DNA from: Bulleidia extructa W1219
GTDB taxonomy: Bacteria; Bacillota_I; Bacilli_A; Erysipelotrichales; Erysipelotrichaceae
NCBI RefSeq assembly: GCF_000177375.1
Contig: NZ_ADFR01000002.1
Span: forward strand, 124,001 to 188,000
Length of the DNA stretch: 64,000 bases
Direction of reading: 5' to 3'
Of the stretch, positions 6,085 through 57,997 are shown one piece after another. The translations under genes were made by a program, and so were the position numbers. Under the pieces are notes generated by a model that had not been told where the DNA came from, did no database searches, and was given only the letters and a program-made list of their open reading frames with translations. The number at the start of each line of letters is the position of its first letter. Positions within the stretch are counted from its first letter, which is position 1.

Positions 6085-6736
6085 ACCATTGAATCGGATC
6101 ATAACCCCATTTTTGTAATTGCTCATTGACCTTTCGAAAAACACCAGATCCAAAGAAACCTCGATATGCTGATAAAGGAGACGGGTGAACCGACTTCAAC
6201 ACCAAATGCTTTTGCGGATCAATCCACTTTTCTTTAGCTTGGGCTTGTCTACCCCAAAGTACAAAAACCACATGGTCTTTTTCCGCATTGATTTTCTGTA
6301 AAACCGTATCTGTGAACATTTCCCAACCTTGACCTTGATGACTCAATGGTCGTCCCTCTCGAACCGTTAAAATCGTATTTAGAAGAAAAACCCCCTGTTT
6401 AGACCAATCTTGCAAATTTCCCTTGTTCCTTTGATAACCATATTCACTTTCAATTTCTTGGAAAATATTTTTTAAACTGGCTGGTAATTCCCTTCCTTCC
6501 TTCACGGAAAAGGCTAACCCGTGCGCCATCCCTCTGGTTGGATAAGGATCTTGTCCTAAAATCACTACTTTAATATCTTCAAACGGACATAAATCAAACG
6601 CACAAAAGATTTCATTTATCGGTGGAAAGACCACTTGACGACTATATTCCCTCGCCACAAATTCATGTAAGTGCTGATACTCGGGATTTCCCAATTCTCT
6701 AGCCACATACCCATTCCAAGCTTTTGTCTTAGCCAT
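6083..6736 (-). CDS. ung: Uracil-DNA glycosylase
   Basis: 217 residues from the ATG at 6736; a TTG start four codons upstream is less likely. It removes uracil from DNA to start base excision repair. The water-activating motif GQDPYP places the catalytic Asp at residue 63, and HPSPLSAYRGF places the catalytic His at 184. The FLLNTILTVREG and VFVLWGRQAQ blocks are also typical of family 1. The ATG overlaps the stop of the DUF885 gene by 8 bases, implying translational coupling, and the stop abuts a strong terminator. Confidence 0.95.
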   Translation of the reverse strand: MAKTKAWNGYVARELGNPEYQHLHEFVAREYSRQVVFPPINEIFCAFDLCPFEDIKVVILGQDPYPTRGMAHGLAFSVKEGRELPASLKNIFQEIESEYGYQRNKGNLQDWSKQGVFLLNTILTVREGRPLSHQGQGWEMFTDTVLQKINAEKDHVVFVLWGRQAQAKEKWIDPQKHLVLKSVHPSPLSAYRGFFGSGVFRKVNEQLQKWGYDPIQW

Positions 6737-8525
6737 GTTGAACCACAATTTTTTGGAAACTCATTGCCAAATTCATCACCAAAACCTTAAAAGAAAATTC
6801 CGTCTGCACTCCTTTTTTCTTTAAGAAGGCATCTACATCTTTTTGTACCATCCAAAAAGGACGATCCCCATTGGTTAAGAAAACTTCATTTAACTCTTTA
6901 AGTACCTTTGAACCAAGCTTTTCAACAACCTGATACTTCATTGTTAGAAATTGAGTCAAACCAACGCCATATGGTATATAAATAGCCGGATCCTTGATCA
7001 CAGCTTCATACAATTCTTTTGCTGCATTGCCATCCAGTCCTTTGCTGTTGACATAATTGATCACATCCTCTCGCTTCCAACCAAGTCCATTCACACCAAT
7101 ATCAATAGCAGCCGGTAGCATGTAATTAATATTAGTTAAAGTACGATTATATTCCACTGCCTTTTTCTTTAAACCGGAAAACTGCCACATAACATCTTCC
7201 ACATACATAGCCCATCCTTCACTATATCCAATATGACCCACTACCGAGCGAATCGGGTGTGGTTTCGTGTTTAAAAACCATGTCATTTGGTATAAATGAC
7301 CAGGGTACCCCTCGTGAGCTAACGTGGAATACATTTCATTGGTATCTTTAACAGCCGAACGGTTAATCCGGATGACATTATTTCGAATATCATCAATTGT
7401 CGGATTCAAATAATAAGCGACCACTCCATCATTGGCAACAGACGGATCTAAATAACTAACTGTATATTGCACCTTAGCAGGGCTAGGGAACAACTTCTTC
7501 AAATTTTTCTTATGCTCTTCCAAAATTTGAACCGGATCTTTCCGAGGAATTCTTTCCCCCAATTCTTTTTCTTTGGACGTCATAGATACAGTCATTAAGG
7601 CTCGAATCTCTTTATCCAAAGCTTTATCGACTAAATCAAAGATTTCTTTCGGTGTTCCCTTTGTGTTGGATTTGGCTTGCAATAGATTTTTATAATAATC
7701 CAAGCCCCCTTTCATATCGTAAAGCGACCTCCCTTTGCGACTGCCTCGAAAAGACTCCAGTTCTTTCTTGGCTTTTTCATAAGAAGGGATAAAGTGTTTC
7801 AAAACAAGATCCCGATTTTTCTTTTTGTATTCTTCTTTTTTGGTATCGGAAATTCCCTTAACAGCATCTATTTTCTGATTAAACGTTTTAATCAAAGCAC
7901 TATTTTCCTTTTTTCTAATAAATTTATCAATTTGTGCTTCCGTTTCATCTAAAGCCTTATCACTCATAAAGAAGCCTCGATTGGCTTGATCTTTCGTTAC
8001 CTTTAAAGCTCCATCAATATAAGATGGAACCGACGTTAAAACCTTCAGATAATTTTGAATGTCCGTTTCATTTTCAATCTTAAATTCTGTGAAATTCGTA
8101 GTTAAATTTGTGATCAACCCTGATTGAGGCAAGAAATAAAATTGAAAATTATAAAAATTTTGTTGACTATCTCTTTCCAAATGATCCTTCAAAATATCAT
8201 AATCCACTTTTTCTCGTGCACTTAATTTATCTCGATCGAATTGTTTCAATTCATTCAAAGTTTTCCTATTTTCAGCAAGTCCTTTTTCATATTCCTCTTT
8301 GCTAGGCGCTTTTCCTAAAGAAATTTCTTTGGCTTTGATGCCATATTTTGACGGATTTTTCAAAGAGAAATGAAGATTCATGAAATCATCTTCCATGCTG
8401 TTTTTGAACTGTTGCATCGCCCACTCACTAAAACTAGGTTCTGCCTTTATCGGTGTCAAAAGAGCTAAAGCCATCCAAATTGAACAAATAGATAAAGTTA
8501 GTTTACGCCATATCAATCGCATCAT
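6729..8525 (-). CDS. DUF885 family exported protein (putative metallohydrolase)
   Basis: 598 residues. The N-terminus MMRLIWRKLTLSICSIWMAL continues hydrophobically to a likely signal cleavage near PIKA/EP, so it is probably secreted or anchored. The body matches the DUF885 family: a long helical region, then AHEGYPGHLYQ, which has the HEGYPGH zinc-site signature, and GYSEGWAMYVED downstream. These features suggest a zinc-dependent peptidase-like enzyme whose substrate is unknown. The start overlaps the phosphohexomutase stop in an ATGA arrangement, and its own stop overlaps ung, so the three genes are co-transcribed. Confidence 0.85.
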   Translation of the reverse strand: MMRLIWRKLTLSICSIWMALALLTPIKAEPSFSEWAMQQFKNSMEDDFMNLHFSLKNPSKYGIKAKEISLGKAPSKEEYEKGLAENRKTLNELKQFDRDKLSAREKVDYDILKDHLERDSQQNFYNFQFYFLPQSGLITNLTTNFTEFKIENETDIQNYLKVLTSVPSYIDGALKVTKDQANRGFFMSDKALDETEAQIDKFIRKKENSALIKTFNQKIDAVKGISDTKKEEYKKKNRDLVLKHFIPSYEKAKKELESFRGSRKGRSLYDMKGGLDYYKNLLQAKSNTKGTPKEIFDLVDKALDKEIRALMTVSMTSKEKELGERIPRKDPVQILEEHKKNLKKLFPSPAKVQYTVSYLDPSVANDGVVAYYLNPTIDDIRNNVIRINRSAVKDTNEMYSTLAHEGYPGHLYQMTWFLNTKPHPIRSVVGHIGYSEGWAMYVEDVMWQFSGLKKKAVEYNRTLTNINYMLPAAIDIGVNGLGWKREDVINYVNSKGLDGNAAKELYEAVIKDPAIYIPYGVGLTQFLTMKYQVVEKLGSKVLKELNEVFLTNGDRPFWMVQKDVDAFLKKKGVQTEFSFKVLVMNLAMSFQKIVVQHG

Positions 8526-51783: not shown

Positions 51784-52818
51784 TTATTTCTGTTTTAACT
51801 TTAAAATCTGATTTTTCAAGAGATTATTGATAAGGTCTGTATAAATCATTTGATCAACCACTTCTGTTATACTTGTGATTCTTTGCCCTGCATCTTTGGA
51901 AGATGCTCCACAATGATAGATTCTCTGATGTTCAGTATTCCAGTCGATAATAATGTACCTGTCATGAAACTCTCCACCGGATTTTTGGAATGTTATCTTT
52001 CTAAACGGATATTCTTGGCAAAAATCCTGATACTCAAGGATATGGAGCCCTTTGCCGATGTTATCGCTGAATATAATGACCTCTACTGATGAAGGGACAT
52101 CTTTTAATAAAACCAAAGTTTTCACTCCGATGTAGTTATCAACAATATAAATACTCTTTTTCGCTATGCTGTAAATGTCCTTATAAGCAAGATTTGCTTC
52201 GATCGGCTGTCCGTTCAAAAGCAAAAATCCATATTTAAGCTGTGGATTGCTAAGGTCAAGAATCAGGTCAGACAGTTCGGATTTATGCACCACATTATTT
52301 AAGGTATCCACCACCTCTGCCACCTGATCTTCCACATTCATTAAATCTCGTCTTAAATTCTGCATTTCCACGACATTATTCGCAATCTGAATCGAAAGCT
52401 GTAAAAACTCTCTTTTCCCAATCAAACCTTGATTTTCTACGATATAGTCTTTCATTTGCTTGAAAGTGCGTATTAAGGCTCTACTTTGCCTTACTGCAAG
52501 ATCACCTTTTAATACTGTCATCAGCATATAAATTCCCTGTTCAGTAAAGGCATAAGGAAGGTATCTTGTACCGCCCCAACTTGAGGTGAAAATTTTGCAC
52601 CTCAAGTTATCCATTTCTTCTTCGGTGATCCTAAGCATAAAATCTTCGCCTTCAAACTTCTCGATATTGTTCTTGACCTGCCGATTGAAATTTTTAGTTT
52701 CATACCCATAAATCTCTGCCAGCTCAAAATCAAGCATTACTTTCTGTCCCCTAATAATATAAATCTTTTTTACAAGGGATTCTTGATTTACAAGCATCCT
52801 CTCATCTTTTTTATCCAT
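51784..52818 (-). CDS. ORF6N-domain protein with phospholipase-D-like C-terminus
   Basis: 344 residues from the ATG at 52818 with GGGAG upstream; 29 earlier codons have no better site. Residues about 12-105 form an ORF6N domain (IYIIRGQKVMLDFELAEIYG, GGTRYLPYAFTEQGIYMLMT), common in phage and mobile-element regulators. Residues about 195-325 look like a phospholipase-D-type domain with a single HKD-like motif, H285-D-R-Y-x3-D292, then GASSKDAG; the motif Lys is Arg. It may bind or cut nucleic acid. Transposase relics flank it on both sides, so it is probably mobile DNA cargo. Confidence 0.75.
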   Translation of the reverse strand: MDKKDERMLVNQESLVKKIYIIRGQKVMLDFELAEIYGYETKNFNRQVKNNIEKFEGEDFMLRITEEEMDNLRCKIFTSSWGGTRYLPYAFTEQGIYMLMTVLKGDLAVRQSRALIRTFKQMKDYIVENQGLIGKREFLQLSIQIANNVVEMQNLRRDLMNVEDQVAEVVDTLNNVVHKSELSDLILDLSNPQLKYGFLLLNGQPIEANLAYKDIYSIAKKSIYIVDNYIGVKTLVLLKDVPSSVEVIIFSDNIGKGLHILEYQDFCQEYPFRKITFQKSGGEFHDRYIIIDWNTEHQRIYHCGASSKDAGQRITSITEVVDQMIYTDLINNLLKNQILKLKQK

Positions 52819-53231
52819 TTTTTCCACTCCCTTCCTCAAATCCCCAAATGATTTCAACCGTATTCTTGTCATAAACAAGGTATCCAGATTGTCATTGACC
52901 GTCACAACTCTTACCCTAAGAAAGGGAAAATCTTTTCAATGAAATTGCCATGTTTGGTATAGTTTCTTCCAAACCTTGATAGGTCTTTTACAACAAAACA
53001 ATTTACTTTCCCCCATTCGTACTTCTTCCATCAAGTTTTCAAATTCGGTTATTCAAAATTGATTTCTGAATATCCGTCATCCATATATTCACCTGTAAGC
53101 TCCATCTCCTCATTTTTATCAACGTTCACTTTAAATTAATTCTGGTATGAAGATATATATATAAGCAGAAATAAGTGGTAGAAACTTTGTATCGTCAAAT
53201 TAAGTGTTCTCACAAGAAAGCAGATTGTATC
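52819..53231. other. Gap upstream of the ORF6N gene, no gene seen
   Basis: About 413 bases between the ORF6N start and the IS30 remnant, AT-rich, with no long frame of interest. No consensus promoter was identified with confidence for the ORF6N gene. Confidence 0.4.
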
Positions 53232-53983: not shown

Positions 53984-54022
53984 TTAAAAACCCCTCATTC
54001 CGGTTTCGTCCGGAATAAGGGG
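53984..54022 (-). terminator. Strong terminator of the surface-protein gene
   Basis: A 13-bp stem (CCCCUUAUUCCGG with CCGGAAUGAGGGG in the RNA, one U-G wobble; 54010-54022 and 53991-54003) with a 6-base loop and TTTTT. Stop-to-hairpin distance is about 40 bases. Confidence 0.9.
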
Positions 54023-54061
54023 CATCTCAACACCTGATTTTCAGTGTGTCATTTATCCTGA

Positions 54062-56881
54062 TTAATCTTTTCTCTTTAACAGAACAACTAAAACGCCTAT
54101 CCCTGCTAAAGTAGCCACCAGTAATCCAACATACATCCAAAGATTAATCGAATCACCAGTCCTTGGATTTGTACCAGGTCTAATTGGCTTCTTAGGATTT
54201 TTCGGAGTAGAAGATTCTGAAGTATATTTCAAAGTAAGTGAAATTTCCTTACTTGTTGGAGCTATAAAATCAGCTCCTTCTGGAATTTGTTCTCCAAACC
54301 ACTTCAAATCAAAATGAAGCACATTATTAGTAGCTGTATTCGTCGCTTTTGCTTTAAAGTGTCCAAAGACAGTTCCCCTAATGGTGTAATTTGTATTAGG
54401 TTTAGCATTTTCATTAAACACCACACCCTTCACATTCACCTTTAAGTGATCATCAACTGCTTCAACAGCTTCTTTAATTTGTTGGAATGTTTGAATATTA
54501 CCAACCACTTTCATAGTGACTGTAATCTTCTTCCCATTGACTGTTACCTTTGTGATTTCAAACTTCCCACGAGAACCCATCAATTCAACTCGATAATCAT
54601 GAGCAAAACTAAGTTCATTAGGCAGGGTCATTGTTGCAGTAAAACTTGTTTCCAAATCAGAAATTTGAATATGGGTAGGCATACTTCCGGATCCATATTG
54701 TGCCTCAAGTTCTCTCATTCTCTTTTTAATAGAAGATACATCTAAAAGCCCTGTCATCGTCATCTTGTCCGATTTCTTAGCAACATAAACACGATCATGC
54801 TGGGTATTTCCATTCACTAATAAGTCGCCCGGCAATTTATCGGTAGCACTAATATTTCCAACATTGGAAGAATTGTGTTTCACGGTTGCTGTGATTTCCT
54901 TCGTCATAGGATTTGTGAAATCTTCACCACCAACTAACTGTTCACCTAACCACTTGTAGTTAAAATGAATGATATTGTTCGTTAATTTGTTCGTTGCTTT
55001 TGCACTAAACAAACCGGAAACTTGTCCTTTGATGGTATAATTCTTTCCTTTTTCAGCATTAGCTTCAAAAGTCACTCCATCCACATGAACCTTAAGCTGA
55101 TCAGCCACACCATCCACAGCTTTCTTAATATCTTGAAAGTTATTGACTGAGTTAGCTAAAACCATCTTAACCGTTAATTTTTTACCATTTACTGTTACTT
55201 CAGAAATCTTAAACTTAGTATTAGCACCCTCTAAAGTTACTTTATCTTTAATATTGCCAACAAATTTAAGACCATCAGGAAGCTCCATTGAAGCTGTAAA
55301 TTCATGCTTCATATTCGTTACGGAAATATTAGTTGGATTTGTTGGATATTGAGCCTCAAGTTGATGCATCGTGTTCTTGATTGGAGAAACATCCAAAAGA
55401 CCTGTCACTTTAAAGACATCATTCTTTTTAAATTCCATCACCTTTGTATGTTGTGTATCCCCATTCACTAACAAATCACCCGGTAATTTATCTGTTTTAG
55501 AAATCGTTTGTTCTGATGATGATTGATACTTAACAGAAAGAGCGATCTCATTCGGATTAGAAGCACTCTTGCCGGCCTCTGTTTGTTTACCATTCCAAGA
55601 TAAATTGAAGTTCACGACCTTACCTGAAATTGTATTCGTAGCCTTAGCTTTTAAACTACCTGTAATAGAACCTGTCACTTCATAATCTGTACCAGAGCGA
55701 GCCTGTTCATTAAATTTAACCGTCTTAAAAGTCACCTTTAATTCATCCGCTACTTTATGGATGGCATCTCTCAATTGAGTATATGAAGTCATGTTCTCTG
55801 CGTTCACCAACTTGAATTTAACGACAGCTGTTTTATGACCATTTTCAAGAGTAGTACTTTCAATAACAAAAGAACCATTTGCCCCACTTAACTCTGGATT
55901 CGTCGAAACAAAACTTAGTCCATCCGGCAAATTCAACTTTGCTGTAAATGAAGTGGTTAAGTTACTCAACTTAATTTTTTGAATGTCAGTACTATATTGT
56001 TGTTCAATCTTCTTCATTTGGTCTTTGATGGTTTTCGCATCAATCACACCTTCAAAATCCAAGTTATCATTCTTTCCCTTGGTAATCACTTGGTGACCTG
56101 TATTACCATCCAATTTCAAATCAGCCGGTAAATCTACTGTTTGTGAAACTGTATTTTCTTGTGCTTTAAAAACATTCGAATTCGCAAAACCCTTGGTTAA
56201 AGGTTTTGTTGAAGTATCCGAGTTAAAACTTTGTAGACCGATACCAACCTTTCCTAAATTACTACTAGGATAAAATGAAAAATTACCCTTTGCCGTAATA
56301 TTCTTATGATCAAAACTTTCCGCTTGACTTTTACTACTTGCTTTTACCGTATAAGGAATTTCAATATCCACGGTTCTATTAGCAGTTCCAGCCGCTTTAT
56401 CATTCCGATAAGCCTGTAAAATTCCACTCCAGTTTACCTCTTTTAATTTAAGTTTAAACTTAACGGTTTTACCTGAAATTTCCTTTGTGATTGTTGATTT
56501 AGGAATAATCTCCGATGTGCTGTTCGTTACCGGAGTTCCAATTTCAGCTCCATCCGGGAAAGAAACATGGTAGTCAATTGAAGCACTTGTACTAACCGTC
56601 TCCTTATCCCAAGGAAAATACCCTTTATTCGCAAATTCCGTCATGTTAGATTCAAAAGCAGACATCACATCCGCCATCGGAACCTTCGCCTTCCATACAC
56701 CTGCGTATGTCCCCTTATTGGAACCGGCAGCACCGCTAACCGTTCCACTTACGCTTGTGTATTTCGCAATCTCCAAGTCTTTAGCTGCATGTACAACATT
56801 TGTAGCGGGAATGATTGTTCCTAACGCCAAGACAAGTGCTGTAAATACTGAAGCAATTTTATGAGTTAATTTAGTTTTCAT
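54062..56881 (-). CDS. Cell-wall-anchored repeat surface protein with NPRTG-type sorting signal
   Basis: 939 residues. A signal peptide (MKTKLTHKIASVFTALVLAL, cleavage near HA/A32) leads to a unique region to about 245. Three repeats of about 216 residues follow (about 246-460, 461-677, 678-890), marked by LP(A/G)DL at 251, 466 and 683, by LEAQY/IEQQY, and by KATN at 413, 628 and 846. Pro/Lys linker, then NPRTGD (905-910), a membrane helix (912-935) and KRKD: a sortase signal with Asn-Pro in place of Leu-Pro. The repeats have no recognised family; adhesin or stalk role is inferred. A promoter-proximal palindrome lies upstream. Confidence 0.82.
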   Translation of the reverse strand: MKTKLTHKIASVFTALVLALGTIIPATNVVHAAKDLEIAKYTSVSGTVSGAAGSNKGTYAGVWKAKVPMADVMSAFESNMTEFANKGYFPWDKETVSTSASIDYHVSFPDGAEIGTPVTNSTSEIIPKSTITKEISGKTVKFKLKLKEVNWSGILQAYRNDKAAGTANRTVDIEIPYTVKASSKSQAESFDHKNITAKGNFSFYPSSNLGKVGIGLQSFNSDTSTKPLTKGFANSNVFKAQENTVSQTVDLPADLKLDGNTGHQVITKGKNDNLDFEGVIDAKTIKDQMKKIEQQYSTDIQKIKLSNLTTSFTAKLNLPDGLSFVSTNPELSGANGSFVIESTTLENGHKTAVVKFKLVNAENMTSYTQLRDAIHKVADELKVTFKTVKFNEQARSGTDYEVTGSITGSLKAKATNTISGKVVNFNLSWNGKQTEAGKSASNPNEIALSVKYQSSSEQTISKTDKLPGDLLVNGDTQHTKVMEFKKNDVFKVTGLLDVSPIKNTMHQLEAQYPTNPTNISVTNMKHEFTASMELPDGLKFVGNIKDKVTLEGANTKFKISEVTVNGKKLTVKMVLANSVNNFQDIKKAVDGVADQLKVHVDGVTFEANAEKGKNYTIKGQVSGLFSAKATNKLTNNIIHFNYKWLGEQLVGGEDFTNPMTKEITATVKHNSSNVGNISATDKLPGDLLVNGNTQHDRVYVAKKSDKMTMTGLLDVSSIKKRMRELEAQYGSGSMPTHIQISDLETSFTATMTLPNELSFAHDYRVELMGSRGKFEITKVTVNGKKITVTMKVVGNIQTFQQIKEAVEAVDDHLKVNVKGVVFNENAKPNTNYTIRGTVFGHFKAKATNTATNNVLHFDLKWFGEQIPEGADFIAPTSKEISLTLKYTSESSTPKNPKKPIRPGTNPRTGDSINLWMYVGLLVATLAGIGVLVVLLKRKD

Positions 56882-57032: not shown

Positions 57033-57060
57033 AAAAAAGCCTGAGAATAAATCCCAGACT
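57033..57060 (-). terminator. Terminator after rpsI
   Basis: Minus strand stem GTCTGGGA/TCTCAGGC (57052-57059 with 57039-57046; two wobble pairs), 5-base loop, then TTTTTT. It follows the rpsI stop by 22 bases. Confidence 0.8.
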
Positions 57061-57081
57061 TTCTAGTCATAAGACGTATGA

Positions 57082-57489
57082 TTAACGCTTACTAAATTGA
57101 GGAGCACGACGAGCACCCTTTAAGCCATACTTCTTACGTTCTTTACCACGAGAATCACGAGTTAGGAAACCTGCCTTCTTAAGAGCTGGGCGATAATCCT
57201 CACTTGCTTCAAGCAAAGCACGAGCAATGCCATGACGCATTGCACCAGCTTGACCGGTATATCCACCACCATAAACATTGATCTTAATATCAAATTGTTC
57301 CTTTGTTTCCGTTAAAACTAATGGTGAATTAACAACCATTCTTAACGTAGCTAATGGAAGATATTCTTCTAGTCCTTTTCCATTAACGGTCATTACACCA
57401 GTACCAGGAGTCATAAAGACACGAGCTACGGATGTTTTACGACGACCTGTACCAACATAGGTAACACCTGTTTTCTTCTTAGTTGCCAT
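57082..57489 (-). CDS. rpsI: 30S ribosomal protein S9
   Basis: 135 residues. [20 protein letters not shown] at the start, [20 protein letters not shown] and the C-terminal [14 protein letters not shown], whose final Arg reaches the P-site tRNA anticodon loop. It follows rplM after 14 bases, the universal pair. Confidence 0.98.
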
Positions 57490-57503
57490 CTGTCTTTTCC
57501 TCC

Positions 57504-57938
57504 TTATTTAACTTCTAACACGACTGGTTTTTGAGCAGCGTGTGGATGTTTATTTCCAACATAAACAAACAAATGAGTACGCATAACATCACCAAGTTTT
57601 GTATGAGGCAACATACCCTTAATGGCTTTTTCAACCCATTCAACAGTATAGTTTTCACGCATTTCCCTAGTGCTTCTTGTACGTAAACCACCTGGGTATT
57701 GAGAATGACTGTAATAGAACTTTTTAAAGTCTTGATCGCCTGTGATTTGAATCTTGTCAGCATTCACAACGATAACATAGTCTCCACAATCCACATTAGG
57801 TGTGTAAGCAGGTTTGTTCTTACCTCTTAAAATAGTTGCAACCTGAGTTGCTAAACGTCCTAAAGTTTTGCCTTCACCATCGACGACATACCAAGTACGC
57901 TTAACCTCTGCCGGTTTTAACATAGTTGTTTGACGCAT
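57504..57938 (-). CDS. rplM: 50S ribosomal protein L13
   Basis: 144 residues from the ATG at 57938 ([20 protein letters not shown]), set by AAAGGAG; 18 more codons upstream belong to the leader. [37 protein letters not shown] and [20 protein letters not shown] are conserved. The 53-base leader holds GC-rich hairpin-forming sequence and could be an L13-type autoregulatory leader, which is inference. Confidence 0.97.
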
Positions 57939-57997
57939 AATAATTTCTCCTTTTTTGACTGAGTTTCCGGGGCTCACGCCATAAAGTGTCATACAAG

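Follow-up and report, generated by a model that had tools for sequence, protein, structure and literature searches.

A surface protein of Bulleidia extructa with three repeats of predicted CnaA-like fold and an NPRTG sorting signal

Introduction

Class B sortases of Staphylococcus aureus and Bacillus anthracis take NPQTN and NPKTG signals, respectively, and SrtB of B. anthracis requires an Asp residue after the motif for full activity (PMC11987632, excerpt). In Clostridioides difficile, a single sortase, SrtB, serves substrates that mostly carry (S/P)PxTG (PMC4155245, excerpt). NPKTG has been reported as a poorer substrate in this species.

Domains listed as CnaA-like include D2 of RrgB (2X9Z), SpaD (4HSS, residues 184-324), an AgI/II C2 domain and CLIPPER (PMC12617251, excerpt), and BcpA has one domain of this fold (PMC3132780, excerpt).

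In this study we analyzed a gene located within a 64,000-nt stretch (hereafter, the window) of contig C15 (NZ_ADFR01000002.1) of Bulleidia extructa W1219. Literature searches found no paper on its product, and the available part of the main text of the B. extructa genome paper (PMC12786226) contains neither “sortase” nor “LPXTG”. We consider the product to be a cell-wall-anchored fibrillar adhesin, composed of a repeat stalk and an N-terminal head (probability of about 0.7). Proteins of this kind are familiar, but the repeats represent a rare, undescribed domain family.

Results and Discussion

General features of the gene and its product

The genetic organization of the locus is summarized in Table 1. 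The presence of a surface protein with three repeats and an NPRTG sorting signal, as originally predicted, was confirmed within a single ORF. Residues 6-33 of the precursor are hydrophobic and are followed by AAK (hydropathy and sequence), and residues 1-33 thus correspond to the N-terminal signal peptide expected of a sortase-anchored protein. The tripartite C-terminal sorting signal is also present: NPRTG, a hydrophobic stretch (residues 912-938) and KRKD at the very end, with a short Lys/Pro linker between R3 and NPRTGD. Profile TIGR01167 scored the precursor at 14.1 bits by hmmscan, which is below the cut-off (15.9), and at 19.2 bits, over the cut-off, in the genome search.

Since terminator-like hairpins are placed behind both the surface gene and rpsI, the former is probably its own transcription unit. 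It had also been described as encoding the only large exported protein of the window, which proved incorrect, as the product of 6729..8525 (598 aa) likewise opens with a signal-peptide-like stretch (identified by eye).

Table 1. Features of the surface protein locus (window coordinates).
Feature	Position	Strand	Remarks
Surface protein precursor gene	54062..56881	minus	939 aa, no internal stop
Signal peptide, residues 1-32	56786..56881	minus	sequence and hydropathy; cleavage after VHA placed by eye
N-terminal domain, residues ~33-247	56141..56785	minus	alignment, model, weak hhalign
Repeat R1, residues 251-463	55493..56131	minus	CnaA-like predicted fold
Repeat R2, residues 465-681	54839..55489	minus	modelled unit, CnaA-like predicted fold
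Repeat R3, residues 682-898	54188..54838	minus	
NPRTG pentapeptide, residues 905-909	54155..54169	minus	followed by Asp
Hydrophobic stretch of the sorting signal and KRKD tail, residues 912-939	54065..54148	minus	hydropathy
Terminator-like hairpin behind the surface gene, 14 pairs	53990..54023	minus	consensus match only
Terminator-like hairpin behind rpsI	57034..57064	minus	consensus match only
rpsI and rplM, upstream neighbours	57082..57992	minus	common to two relatives

Sorting signals and sortase

Analysis of the B. extructa genome revealed one PF04203 match and one TIGR03064 match, both within contig C16. The C16 sortase belongs to class B (TIGR03064, 175 bits versus a cut-off of 153.75); a second sortase gene may be absent from the sequence, as genome completeness is 97.9%. 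PF04203 alone undercounts sortases, as it detected one in each of two related genomes, G058 and G059, compared to five and three, respectively, by TIGR03064. Neither profile had a match on C15, so the reported lack of a sortase in the window extends to the whole contig. The NPRTG anchor itself, at first regarded as unusual, is less so, as the only sortase found belongs to the class with NP-type signals. A class B sortase scored over the cut-off in 85 of the 100 genomes searched (B. extructa included), and an NPxTG signal without a nearby sortase is therefore ordinary in this group.

In the B. extructa genome, we read five sorting tails: NPRTGD, NPKVGD, VPNTGD (twice) and LPKTAD. These are the tail encoded in the window and four from 17 fetched stretches, the remainder having been scanned with TIGR01167 and one motif pattern; no motif was seen at the end of the TIGR01167 matches at C15:104594 and C15:272801. 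The tails of five orthologues are MPDTGD, APKTGD, TPKTGD, KPKTGD and, in the MAG SUG162, TLKTSD, which is devoid of Pro. The residue preceding Pro is N, N, V, V or L in B. extructa and M, A, T or K in the four other orthologues, and Asp follows the pentapeptide in all ten tails. By analogy, a variable residue before Pro combined with a constant Asp would fit class B enzymes.

The sortase-anchored proteins of C. difficile are similar in that a single class B sortase is accompanied by several xPxTG tails, most of them followed by Asp, but the motif mostly begins with S or P, compared to N, V or L in B. extructa (PMC4155245, excerpt). The IsdC/SrtB pair of B. anthracis (NPKTG) shares the NP-[KR]-TG-D motif and the class of sortase; however, IsdC is a haem transporter protein, whereas the protein described here is large and repetitive, and its gene is not located beside that of the sortase (PMC11987632, excerpt).

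Judging from the sequence, the signal peptide would export the precursor and the hydrophobic C-terminal tail would halt it in the membrane. The motif and the sortase class suggest that the class B enzyme may then cleave between Thr and Gly of NPRTG and join the protein to peptidoglycan, i.e. that the precursor is probably anchored to the wall by a class B sortase. B. extructa may be a simple test case of a lone class B sortase serving several proteins that differ at the first residue of the motif.

One of the VPNTGD surface-protein genes, located on contig C8, is split into two overlapping frames of 107 and 587 codons (L077, 3940-4260 and 4212-5972), which look frameshifted or misassembled.

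Distribution of related proteins

Full-length relatives were identified in five other genomes: G115 (a close relative), G058, SUG162 (G059; locus L030), Eggerthia catenaformis (G060; locus L029) and a Shuttleworthella satelles record (L028). The last was drawn from a collection separate from that used in the order-wide search, in which a full-length relative was present in 5 of 315 genomes, B. extructa included; 31 of the 315 matched the profile, most only at the sorting-signal end. With the repeat profile, six genomes with matches were found among 392 of the phylum and six among 395 of the class, and the weak matches in G335 (20.9 bits) and G489 (18.9 bits) were treated as chance. In a contig scan of named genomes, no relatives were found with P0001 alone as the query and three were found with alignment A1. 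An unnamed, narrowly distributed surface-domain family can thus be added for Erysipelotrichales-type bacteria.

Proteins sharing only the repeat domain are encoded by one 611-codon frame of B. extructa (40 bits) and three genes of G314; a weak match (27.8 bits) was obtained in G105. List_Bact, Bact_surface_Ig-like, SHIRT or DUF5648 domains are found in these proteins as well. The related domains therefore occur beside known surface modules in other proteins, which supports the interpretation of the repeats as a stalk of an adhesin.

The distribution bears on whether the protein has a host ligand at all. It might instead be a structural component of the envelope (a spacer, a wall organizer or a mediator of contact between cells of the same species), as orthologues occur in several lineages, in three of six genomes near housekeeping genes, and the isopeptide residues are missing from the repeats (see below). 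We consider this unlikely, since the patchy occurrence (the 5 of 315 genomes given above) fits an accessory adhesin better.

Two further surface loci were observed in these searches. On contig C14 of B. extructa (L061, 4146-5939), a second protein contains a distantly related version of the repeat domain along with List_Bact and Bact_surface_Ig-like domains; it carries NPKVG as the sorting motif, Val replacing Thr. In G314 (L062, 4534-9799), three adjacent surface-protein genes pair the repeat domain with SHIRT and are followed by further genes for signal-peptide proteins.

Genetic neighbourhood

In the window, the rplM-rpsI genes directly precede the surface gene. They are found approximately 5.4 kb upstream of the orthologue in G115 (three intervening genes) and approximately 2 kb upstream in E. 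catenaformis, a member of another family (one intervening gene encoding 163 aa), which gives synteny in three of the six genomes. In G058 and SUG162, rpsI is located elsewhere and not beside the orthologue, and rplM-rpsI are absent from the 14.8-kb S. satelles locus. The search with tblastn revealed no plasmid or phage copy of the surface gene.

These observations do not favour a recent acquisition, the original suggestion being that the gene, next to mobile-element relics, may have been acquired. A gene with an ORF6N domain lies approximately 1.2 kb beyond it, the distribution of relatives is patchy, and the orthologues of S. satelles, G058 and SUG162 are not beside rpsI, all of which would fit mobile cargo. 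However, the rplM-rpsI neighbourhood common to G115 and to Eggerthia of another family, together with the lack of plasmid or phage matches, makes such an origin quite improbable.

The ORF6N-domain gene (window positions 51784-52905; PF10543, 114.7 bits) also gave a sub-threshold Phage_pRha match and appears as an isolated phage-type gene; short unassigned frames are present in the same region.

Kinship and turnover of the repeat units

The repeats are approximately 215 residues long. R2 and R3 share 51% identity (blastp 211 bits, E = 5e-74), and R1 is 39-40% identical to either of them (139 bits in both cases; E = 5e-46 with R2 and 3e-46 with R3). When R2 was shuffled 200 times and compared with R3, the best score was 27.7 bits, so the likeness of the repeats is far above chance. 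At the DNA level, the R2 and R3 copies are spaced by 651 nt.

The repeat sequence had no Pfam, NCBIfam or PDB match over the cut-off (query P0001), and hmmscan of P0001 with E values up to 1 placed none of the Pfam adhesin or pilin families, GramPos_pilinBB (PF16569) included, over its cut-off. The nearest Ig-type Pfam entry was He_PIG (15.9 bits versus the 24 required). The unit had originally been noted as unrecognizable, and the profile searches agree, as it fits no named sequence family.

A tree of 19 units (7 of its 16 internal branches open, several of the terminal ones long) placed R1 of the window, G115, S. satelles and G058 in one clade (98/98). R2 of the window pairs with R2 of G115 (100/99), and R3 of the window joins this pair (93/95, below the starred level); R1 and R2 of Eggerthia are sisters (98/98). 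In S. satelles (L028, 7342-8652), the adjacent R2 and R3, the last two units, are 97% identical and stem from a duplication that took place very recently within this orthologue. The groupings indicate that repeats were duplicated, or homogenized, more than once. The full-length proteins contain two or three repeats, and it appears from the tree that this number shifts via duplication of whole units within the gene, by which the length of the stalk would evolve.

Predicted fold of the repeat unit

An AlphaFold2 model of R2 (16 rows; pLDDT 89.8, pTM 0.84) contains two helices, at 35-46 and 118-127. Comparison with solved structures using VIA-align gave BcpA 268-410, which we take to be the CnaA-like domain of this protein, as the top match (Z 12.6, rmsd 3.0 over 140 residues), followed by EbpB (Z 11.9), EbpC, PrgB and RrgB (Z 11.7); cohesins are also among the matches (Z of about 10). 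The best two Foldseek matches were to a C. perfringens pilin (E = 5.9e-6 and 1.5e-5). Query TM-scores of the pilin and adhesin matches are low (0.26-0.43), so the likeness covers the core sandwich of approximately 140 residues and not all 217. Pore-forming-toxin chains also returned by Foldseek (E from 2e-4) were discarded, since rmsd values of approximately 10-25 reflect a general beta-sandwich likeness only.

From the model and the PDB comparison, the repeat is predicted to be a CnaA-like (DEv-IgG) Ig-like sandwich. This fold matches the CnaA-like domains of BcpA (268-410), RrgB D2, SpaD D2, EbpB, AgI/II C2 and CLIPPER (DUF11) across almost the entire unit (Z 9.9-12.6, rmsd 2.5-3.4 over 116-140 residues), and the setting is also the same, namely wall-anchored multi-domain proteins. 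Folding as a known adhesin domain, originally named as a result that would count against the first interpretation, is thus seen at the level of the predicted fold but not at that of sequence family. Fold similarity by itself reveals no function; in an adhesin, the three domains would form a stalk raising the N-terminal domain off the wall.

As pilin domains head the list of fold matches, the repeats could also be the shaft domains of a backbone pilin whose subunits are covalently joined in a pilus. As a rule, polymerization of a pilus requires a pilin-motif lysine together with a sortase dedicated to the task, usually one of class C. The sole sortase found is of class B and is encoded away from the gene, and no YPKN-like motif was seen by eye in the sequence, which makes a pilin very unlikely, even though some class B sortases polymerize pili (S. 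pyogenes; PMC11987632, excerpt).

Invariant residues of the repeat

Only T12, G155, G159, A165, W180 and Q184 are invariant in all 16 aligned units. Isopeptide residues commonly stiffen such stalks. The position of the CnaA Lys (column 6, estimated from the limits of the aligned structure ranges) is occupied by Leu or Ile in 14 of 14 units, and no Asn is conserved within the penultimate strand (columns 173-184). An isopeptide bond was rejected, as the Lys/Asp/Asn triad is not conserved. In contrast to CnaA-like domains, the repeat therefore lacks the first-strand Lys and the penultimate-strand Asn, as well as a sequence-family match; its two modelled helices were counted as a further difference.

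The invariant T12 and Q184 raised the question of a Thr-Gln ester bond. Ester-bond domains of the Cpe0147 type are likewise stalk-type units with an invariant Thr early and Gln late (PMC12679949, excerpt), and in the repeat Thr near the start and Gln near the end are each found in 16 of 16 units. However, at the spacing of the Cpe0147 partners (taken from the same excerpt of PMC12679949), His is present at Gln-8 in none of the 16 units and Asp at Gln-3 in one, and the Gln of the repeat is on the penultimate strand. This bond was also rejected, with the partner residues missing and, from topology reasoning alone, T12 and Q184 expected at opposite ends of the sandwich. That Thr12 and Gln184, the sole invariant polar side chains besides Trp, form some other covalent or interdomain lock replacing the lost Lys-Asn isopeptide bond is highly improbable; if true, either the cross-link chemistry or the rigid domain-domain joint would be new.

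The N-terminal domain

The original description of three repeats was accurate as far as it went, but it overlooked a divergent domain preceding R1. In the proposed adhesin, this N-terminal domain probably binds a ligand or a partner cell. Its identity to the window protein, compared with that of R1, is 56/59% in S. satelles (L028), 59/50% in G058, 40/31% in E. catenaformis (L029) and 32/33% in SUG162 (L030); it clearly exceeds R1 in conservation in just two of these four orthologues, giving weak support for a functional head. The adhesin reading is weakened by this limited difference and by the lack of conserved isopeptide residues. Adhesion and ligand binding nevertheless seem the plausible roles, and a surface protein with a sorting signal is probably contact machinery, in line with the host- or cell-contact role first proposed.

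A model of the N-terminal domain with R1 (five rows; pLDDT 84.5, pTM 0.56) was used in a structure search, in which most of the best matches align to R1 and those spanning both domains have an rmsd of approximately 15-27. In the N-terminal domain, strands and helices are predicted to follow each other in the same order as in the repeat units. Together with weak support from sequence comparisons (blastp against R1, E = 0.015; hhalign against the repeat, probability 27%, E = 7e-4), this suggests that the domain is likely a divergent fourth copy of the repeat unit.
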